Source: Rhodospirillales bacterium (lineage in GTDB: Bacteria; Pseudomonadota; Alphaproteobacteria; BOG-932; Roseiterribacteraceae). From it: a stretch of DNA of 33,202 nucleotides. The notes beneath the pieces were generated by a model that saw only the letters and a program-made list of their open reading frames with translations, made no database searches and was not told the DNA's origin. Shown here piece after piece: positions 30,129 to 31,742 of this stretch. The stretch lies in the NCBI GenBank assembly GCA_003165335.1, contig PLTD01000057.1, forward strand, positions 2,046-35,247, read 5' to 3'. The position numbers and the translations under genes are program-made. Within the stretch, counting starts at the first letter, position 1, and each line of letters opens with the position of its first letter.

Positions 30129-31742
30129 ATGACTGCTCTGGAGACGATTGCGATTGCGGCGCGCGCGCCGATCGCCAAGAAGCCCGCTCGTCGAATAACC
30201 AGGCCGCCGGATAAAATGCCGGCAACAGCGGCCGCATTTGCAGAAGCGCTCTCGATCGAAAGCCTTTACCGCAAGCTTACCGCCGTCCGCAAAGCGGTCG
30301 CCGAAGACGGTGCAGCGACGCTCGATCTATGGCGCGGAACCCTGGCCCACTCGGCCTTTACCCCGGCGGCGGAGAATCTGGCTCATTATCTAGCGCTGCG
30401 CCGCCGCGACCTCAGCACGCTTCAGCCGGCGCTGGCGGCCTATGGGCTTTCGTCGCTGGGGCGAAGCGAGGCGCGGGTGCTGCCGGCGCTGGATGCGCTG
30501 ATTGCGTCTTTGGCCCGCCTGGCCGGGCAGCCCGCACCGCCCTATCCCGACGCCGCCGATATAGAGGCCGGACCGGCAATGCTCGATGCGGAGAAGCAGC
30601 GCTTTTTCGGATGCGACCCGACGGGGCAGCATACAAGGATCATGGTCACGCTGCCAACCGAAGCGGGGTCTGATTCGGTGCTTGTCCGCCGTCTGGTCGC
30701 GGCGGGGATGAACTGTGCCCGGATCAACTGCGCCCATGACGACCCCGATGTCTGGTCGGCGATGATCTCCAATGTCCGCGCCGCGGCCCGCAGGCTGGGC
30801 CGCGACTGCCGTATCCTGATGGATATAGCGGGGCCCAAATGCCGCATCGAAACCGTGCATGTGAAGAATAACGCACGCCTTTACCGCGGCGACCGGATCG
30901 TGCTGGTGAAGGATTTCGACGACGCCGGCGTCCAGGACATGGCAATCGCGACGATCACCTTCCCGGATATACTGCACACCCTTCAGCCCGGCGCCGAAGT
31001 CTGGATCAATGACGGCAAGATTGGCGCGCGTGTCGCGTCGGTTCAGGGTGGAAGGGTGGTTCTGGAAATCTTCAGCGCCCGCGCCAAGGGCGAAAAGCTG
31101 AAGGCCGAGAAAGGGGTGAATTTCCCCAACACGCCGCTCAACCTGCCGGCGCTGGGCGCGGCCGACCTTATAGCGCTGGATTTCGTCGCCCGCCACGCCG
31201 ACCTGATCGGATTTTCCTTCGTTCAGCGCCCGGCCGACATCGCCTTACTGGACCGCGAGTTGAAAAAGCGCCGCCCGGGAAAGCCCGCGGACAATCCGCC
31301 CCAGCCGGTGATCCTCAAAATCGAAACACGCCTTGCTGTCCAGAATCTGCCGCAACTGATCGTCGCCGCCGCCGCAAGTCGGCCGGTTGCGGTGATGATC
31401 GCCCGCGGCGACCTGGCGGTCGAACTGGGCTTTGCCCGCATGTCCGAGATTCAGGAGGAGATTCTGTGGCTGTGCGACGCTGCCCATGTGCCGGTTATCT
31501 GGGCGACGCAAGTTTTGGATAATTTCGTCGCCGACGGCAGCCCCAGCCGCGCCGAAGCGACCGACGCGGCAATGTCACAACGCGCCGAATGCGTGATGCT
31601 GAACAAGGGGCCGTTTCTGGTCGAGGGGATCGGTTTTCTGAAAGATATTTTACGCCGGATGGACCGTCACCAGACCAAAAAATTCGCCCGCTTCGGCCCG
31701 CTCAAATCCTGGGATAGGCTTGAGATAGCAAGCTCACCATAA
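30129..31742 (+). CDS. Atypical pyruvate kinase-like protein
   Basis: A 537-residue protein with the pyruvate kinase barrel. After about 165 residues of helical, Ala-rich sequence not found in standard enzymes, the core runs about 168-510: TRIMVTLPTEAG, GMNCARINCAHDD (Arg198, Asn200), DIAGPKCRIE (Asp232, Lys237), a B-domain with WINDGKIGARV and KGVNFPN, GFSFVQ, the catalytic LKIE (Lys397, Glu399), ARGDLAVELG (425-434), ATQVLD (Thr460) and PSRAEATD. The usual SGETA element reads NKGPF, and the allosteric carboxy-terminal domain is absent. Catalysis of PEP plus ADP to pyruvate plus ATP is likely from the kept residues but not certain. The housekeeping enzyme may be encoded elsewhere. Confidence 0.85.
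   Translation: MTALETIAIAARAPIAKKPARRITRPPDKMPATAAAFAEALSIESLYRKLTAVRKAVAEDGAATLDLWRGTLAHSAFTPAAENLAHYLALRRRDLSTLQPALAAYGLSSLGRSEARVLPALDALIASLARLAGQPAPPYPDAADIEAGPAMLDAEKQRFFGCDPTGQHTRIMVTLPTEAGSDSVLVRRLVAAGMNCARINCAHDDPDVWSAMISNVRAAARRLGRDCRILMDIAGPKCRIETVHVKNNARLYRGDRIVLVKDFDDAGVQDMAIATITFPDILHTLQPGAEVWINDGKIGARVASVQGGRVVLEIFSARAKGEKLKAEKGVNFPNTPLNLPALGAADLIALDFVARHADLIGFSFVQRPADIALLDRELKKRRPGKPADNPPQPVILKIETRLAVQNLPQLIVAAAASRPVAVMIARGDLAVELGFARMSEIQEEILWLCDAAHVPVIWATQVLDNFVADGSPSRAEATDAAMSQRAECVMLNKGPFLVEGIGFLKDILRRMDRHQTKKFARFGPLKSWDRLEIASSP

Follow-up and report, generated by a model that had tools for sequence, protein, structure and literature searches.

A C-domainless pyruvate kinase with an extra helical domain

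A gene in a 33,202-nucleotide stretch of a Rhodospirillales bacterium contig (PLTD01000057.1; hereafter the window) raises the question of what a pyruvate kinase (PK)-like protein does when it lacks the C-terminal regulatory (C) domain and carries a long extension ahead of its barrel. The gene (30129-31742, plus strand, as are all features given below) opens with ATG and encodes 537 aa; the ORF call, Pfam and NCBIfam assign it as a C-domainless PK isozyme of the short form (defined below). The called genes on both sides lie on the opposite strand and encode membrane or unknown proteins, and none of them is glycolytic.

Pfam placed the PK barrel (PF00224) at residues 168-492 (E = 2.2e-48; 165.5 bits against a gathering cut-off of 30), and PK_C (PF02887) was absent from its matches up to E = 1, confirming the missing regulatory domain described in an earlier note made from the DNA alone. 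From Pfam, the alignment and an AlphaFold2 model, the first part of the barrel, with RINCAH and MDIAGPKCR, spans residues 167-240 (30627-30848), so that about 165 residues precede it. The lid (B) domain follows in a single copy (residues 241-340, 30849-31148; boundary approximate, from the alignment and the model). The second part of the barrel occupies residues 341-518 (31149-31682; Pfam, model and structure superposition), and a short tail (residues 519-537, 31683-31739; alignment and model) stands in place of the C domain.

The AlphaFold2 model, computed from an alignment of 54 relatives, had a mean pLDDT of 90.2 and a pTM of 0.88. Its residues 164-522 superposed best on human erythrocyte PK (2vgg; Z 33.1, rmsd 2.4, 312 residues aligned). 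Foldseek and VIA-align likewise placed residues 164-528 on pyruvate kinases, the VIA-align rows covering this segment, with the N-terminal domain outside them. Among the best 60 of 102 rows, PDB sequence relatives were also pyruvate kinases, the matches beginning at or beyond residue 164.

Ahead of the barrel, a leader (residues 1-41, 30129-30251) is probably disordered over residues 1-30 (pLDDT about 50, rising to 70 over residues 31-40). It is followed by a helical N-terminal domain (residues 42-166, 30252-30626; model and clade alignment) with five helices at 43-67, 78-91, 98-103, 117-131 and 142-160, in pLDDT blocks of 85-98. The front residues, modelled within the whole protein, are thus predicted to be helical. 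The length of the extension reported in the earlier note stands, but since residues 1-30 are of low confidence and helices are confined to 43-160, the well-folded extra domain is predicted to be about 120 residues rather than 165. The domain of the window protein matched none of the Pfam families, and those of 44 related rows matched eight families with one weak match each. A sequence-profile search of the PDB returned six matches to the domain (E 0.00025 to 0.55), four of them in designed TIM barrels and the other two in type III secretion proteins. They covered stretches of 17-19 residues and were regarded as chance.

The catalytic residues are kept and the diagnostic residues are changed

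The catalytic residues were located in the alignment as Lys397 and Glu399 of KIE (31317-31325), Asp428 of ARGD (31410-31412) and Thr460 of WATQVLD (31506-31508), which we take to be rabbit K269, E271, D295 and T327. As the earlier note had observed in the window protein, these four residues are kept; indeed, they were invariant in 70/70 rows of the clade described below. Arg198, His203, Asp232, Lys237 and Arg239 were invariant in 68/68 rows with letters. Lys237 (30837-30839) aligns with rabbit residue 117, where Lys is shared with canonical enzymes (43/43 clade rows and 35/36 canonical PKs).

Other positions separate the two groups. At rabbit position 76, Ala was found in 43/43 clade rows and Ser in 36/36 canonical PKs; at position 114, the clade has Ala or Gly, rarely Pro, Ser or Thr, whereas 35/36 canonical PKs have Gln; and the Ser of SGETAxG is Asn in 43/43 clade rows and Ser in 36/36 canonical PKs. 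This loop had been read as a replacement of SGETA by NKGPF. It is indeed changed, but mostly by deletion: SGETAxG aligns to N----KG (Asn-Lys-Gly, 31602-31610). In the comparison with E. coli PykF, a four-residue gap comes after the Ser, and the KG of the window protein lines up with the one behind SGESA. N-K-G was kept in 69/69 clade rows with letters. Given Ser76 to Ala and the shortened SGETAxG in the rows compared, the kinetics of the clade enzymes may differ from those of canonical PKs.

The layout defines a patchily distributed clade with short and long forms

A pattern-based scan of genome contigs detected at least 71 loci with this layout, in Alphaproteobacteria, Gammaproteobacteria, Bacteroidota, Actinomycetota, Cyanobacteriota and Bacillota, and in metagenome-assembled genomes (MAGs) labelled Anaerolineae, Acidobacteria, Ignavibacteria and Planctomycetota. 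Because it recurs across phyla, the layout is more than chance. After rows below 240 bits in total and a duplicate were left out, 94 loci yielded 70 rows: 50 short forms, 17 long forms (one cut at a contig end) and 3 fragments. Alignments were built from 54 of the 67 rows of at least 450 aa (A1), 26 rows (A2) and 44 rows (A5). The N-terminal domain is typical of the clade, with the consensus NLAHYLALRxxDLRxLQ...GLSSLGRSE.

A tree built on the barrel separated 43 of the 70 clade rows, both short and long, from 36 canonical PKs by a 100/100 branch; the tree has no outgroup and its bootstrap was not fully settled. The phylogeny proposed in the earlier note thus sets this form apart from the canonical enzymes.

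The distribution of the clade is patchy. Two of 59 genomes, the window's own genome being one, had a match at clade level (about 355-361 bits), against 168 bits or less for canonical PKs. The N-terminal domain was found in 3 of 142 genomes of the class, again including the window's own, plus a weak match (6e-4) in a 242-aa frame; save for this weak match, it occurred inside PK frames. Twelve plasmid records matched over at least 80% of the query, and ten of them were examined.

Short forms measure 479-537 aa and long forms 613-654 aa, the lid region of the latter being longer by about 130 residues. Directly after GPKxRTG, these extra residues resemble a second lid (B) domain. The AlphaFold2 model of one long form (L072, 5944-7827; pLDDT 89.4) showed a lid-like strand order in the extra region, and the profile match between this region and the short-form lid was weak (probability 61, P 7.8e-5). 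The other long-form rows with the extra region are L069-L071, L073-L076, L078, L079, L083-L085, L087, L089, L090 and L093. Two genes, in Stutzerimonas KOS6 (L082:5878-7888) and in a Chitinophagaceae (L091:3363-4950), are each split over two frames and are either broken or affected by sequencing error.

A canonical pyruvate kinase is present alongside

Besides the window gene, the genome contains two further genes with a PK barrel: one for a canonical PK on contig C102 and one for another clade member on contig C21. The search for a canonical PK elsewhere in the genome, as suggested in the earlier note, was therefore successful; the enzyme on C102 (L001, NF004886) carries the sole PK_C match in the genome at E <= 0.001. 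It shares with the window protein the barrel and lid fold, the catalytic residues and Lys117, but unlike the window protein it has PK_C and no match to the clade N-terminal domain, and it has S76, Q114 and SAETA where the window protein has A, A and N----KG. A PK_C-bearing canonical PK was also found in 22/22 clade-bearing genomes tested, which correspond to 22 of the 71 scan loci, four of them titled MAG.

The clade copy on C21 (L003:1690-2619), which is cut by the contig start, is 85% identical to the window protein over 482 residues, and the gene after it encodes a polyphosphate kinase 2 (PF03976, 7.9e-105). Its flank has no match to the window, so this copy either lies at a separate locus or comes from a related genome that entered the assembly (contamination 4.5).

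Relation to annotated families and to C. glutamicum Pyk2

The best NCBIfam model for the window protein was NF011314/PRK14725, 'pyruvate kinase', at 561.1 bits, under the curated cut-off of 642. Like the window protein, this model includes the N-terminal domain; the window protein lacks model positions 217-328. All six of the other short forms tested likewise fell under the cut-off, while 2/2 long forms exceeded it. The 352-residue PK model NF005234/PRK06739 appears from its length to be too short for a C domain, as in the window protein, but it is also too short for the helical N-terminal domain, and the window protein scores 111 bits against its cut-off of 564. The description in the earlier note of a PK-like protein with a helical front domain and no C domain is therefore accurate, whereas its novelty is not: the layout is that of a clade of the NF011314 type which NCBI already names 'pyruvate kinase'. 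The layout is thus mostly not new, and the window protein is one more short form within an already recognised kind of PK.

Several leads to a precedent were considered. Arabidopsis AT3G49160 was one such lead. VcIIIPK of Vibrio cholerae was set aside, its 1461-bp gene and 50% identity to VcIIPK pointing to a canonical-size paralogue. Papers on M. trichosporium and M. alcaliphilum mention second PKs, which are at most candidate members of the clade.

The closest precedent is Pyk2 (NCgl2809) of Corynebacterium glutamicum. According to PMC5112673, it has PK activity in vivo and in vitro and complements pyk1 and double mutants on ribose. The purified enzyme is active and forms a hexamer; it is activated by FBP without a C domain, from which its authors inferred a distinct mechanism of FBP activation. 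Its S0.5 for PEP is weak (4.58 mM without FBP), and it needs Mn2+ and is reported to be K+-dependent, requiring a monovalent cation. The gene is co-transcribed with ldhA and is induced 14-fold under oxygen deprivation. For NCgl2809/cg3218, PMC3972247 and PMC6397837 provide expression data. As described in PMC5112673, Pyk2 shares with the window protein the PK barrel, an extra N-terminal sequence (120 aa), the absence of a C-terminal domain and the status of a second isozyme beside a canonical PK. Unlike the window protein, it has a mass of 67.6 kDa and a barrel at residues 128-213 and 346-606, limits consistent with a long form and its enlarged lid. Moreover, the C. glutamicum genome was one of the 2/14 control genomes that matched NF011314 at E <= 1e-70. 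From the published size and barrel limits together with this genome-level match, we infer that Pyk2 is a clade member of the long form. In the order of a Mycolicibacterium, 9/121 genomes had long-form members over the NF011314 cut-off, 9/9 with Lys117 and NKG. A literature search that covered few subscription papers found no published assay of a short form. A characterised normal PK of the same layout, which the earlier note regarded as evidence against its proposal, is thus closely approached by Pyk2, although this is apparently a long form (PMC5112673).

The cation requirement deserves separate mention. The Lys117 rule, as set out in PMC8835810, predicts K+ independence, and 77% of the Lys117 sequences considered there have L113/Q114. 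All clade rows with letters (68/68) have Lys at this position, yet the window protein has I233 and A234 at the L113/Q114 positions and does not match that pattern; the clade has mostly L/I and A/G. The K+ dependence of Pyk2, placed in this clade by its published description and the genome match, conflicts with the Lys117 type of the clade.

Genomic context of the clade genes

On plasmids of two Nostoc strains (L096 and L097), a short-form gene is followed by genes for L-lactate dehydrogenase (LDH) and phosphoglycerate mutase. The two strains share this plasmid set, with a DUF1269 gene upstream. In a six-frame search, these two plasmids were the only ones of 84 clade loci with an LDH, and no LDH was found at E <= 1e-10 beside the clade gene in four flanks from the order of the Mycolicibacterium, searched with a cyanobacterial LDH query. 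With short-form genes beside LDH in Nostoc and pyk2 co-transcribed with ldhA in C. glutamicum, as published, the pairing of PK and LDH seems to occur in both short and long forms. On Novosphingobium and Sphingobium plasmids (L099 and L100), the end of a cation transporter gene reaches into the clade gene, within a common cluster of oxidase, cytochrome, DedA and divalent metal transporter genes. This cluster would fit use at low oxygen and the Mn2+ requirement described for Pyk2.

In 5/97 loci, from four bacterial groups, the clade gene has a phosphate-transport gene no more than about 0.5 kb away: pstSCAB in Hymenobacter (Bacteroidota, L105), pstS in Thiodictyon (Gammaproteobacteria, L103), Cyanobium (Cyanobacteriota, L089) and a Chitinophagaceae (Bacteroidota, L091), and pstB in a Rhizobiales (Alphaproteobacteria, L028). 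None of the 36 canonical-PK loci, which are shorter (2.9-4.0 kb), had a convincing pst gene. Five loci first seemed to hold pstB, and L028 alone held up. Eight clade loci gave further pstB-like matches of 27-33% identity, and a canonical-PK locus gave another; these resemble other ABC proteins. The numbers fall short of proving a link, but that unrelated groups show the same association is noteworthy.

A Pfam scan of 221 of the 316 neighbour ORFs selected revealed no conserved operon partner, the most frequent families being ABC_tran (5/120) and Sulfate_transp and CitMHS (3/101 each). Gene calling by longest ORFs was crude: at the Hymenobacter locus only pstC was recovered of four annotated pst genes, and in seven loci the PK gene lost out to an antisense ORF. 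Eleven loci (near copies or split genes) and the loci without a called PK gene were excluded, and the lists were shortened by hand. For these reasons the absence of a common partner is a weak negative.

A probable accessory pyruvate kinase isozyme

All together, these results indicate that the window protein is very probably an accessory PK isozyme that converts PEP and ADP to pyruvate and ATP. The ordinary PK of the host would do the housekeeping, the clade isozyme being additional to it and probably called upon under particular conditions, for example at low oxygen, during fermentation or, in some lineages, when phosphate is limiting. By analogy to Pyk2, we infer that the short-form window protein would perform the same chemistry, and the same analogy suggests when it would be used.

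The proposal that the substrate could differ from PEP found no support beyond sequence divergence. Such an enzyme would act on another phosphoenol-type substrate, or on an acceptor other than ADP, in an active site reshaped by the changes at Ser76 and SGETA. S76A and N----KG throughout the rows compared, the 100/100 branch from canonical PKs and the canonical enzyme alongside in 22/22 genomes would all be compatible with it, and the weak S0.5 of Pyk2 for PEP leaves room for a better substrate (PMC5112673). Nevertheless, we consider it improbable: Pyk2, of the same layout, uses PEP and ADP and complements pyk mutants (PMC5112673), the catalytic residues are invariant, and on two Nostoc plasmids the gene adjoins those for LDH and phosphoglycerate mutase. 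A catalytically weak regulator, which would bind PEP, FBP or nucleotides and tune the canonical PK or another partner through the helical domain, is more improbable still. Its accessory distribution and the conservation of the extra domain would suit this role, but the catalytic residues are kept in 70/70 rows, Pyk2 is enzymatically active (PMC5112673), and no neighbour family exceeded 5/120 or 3/101 of those scanned with crude gene calling.

A third proposal, compatible with an accessory PK, concerns the conditions of use: in some lineages the protein might be a phosphate-starvation isozyme that makes ATP and spares or recycles phosphate, rather than an enzyme for low oxygen. The pst genes near 5/97 clade loci and 0/36 canonical-PK loci, and the polyphosphate kinase 2 gene beside the C21 copy, point in this direction. 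Still, 5/97 is a minority and against 0/36, with shorter control loci, too small a contrast alone. In addition, the window gene has no pst neighbour, and Pho-box-like sites in the window were not above chance (1 found, 1.57 expected). Hence we regard this proposal as unlikely, though less so than the two preceding ones.

Within the reading as an accessory PK, the helical N-terminal domain, for which the earlier note suggested a role as regulator or partner-binding module, would serve oligomerisation and perhaps effector control. It is conceivable, if rather doubtful, that the domain is a new PK control module that replaces the C domain, giving a hexamer instead of a tetramer and control by FBP, and that the clade needs K+ despite Lys117.

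The odd layout of the window protein thus belongs to a widespread second type of PK, and one protein built in this way has been characterised. This makes two questions testable: how FBP activates a PK without a C domain, and whether Lys117 is sufficient to predict K+ independence.
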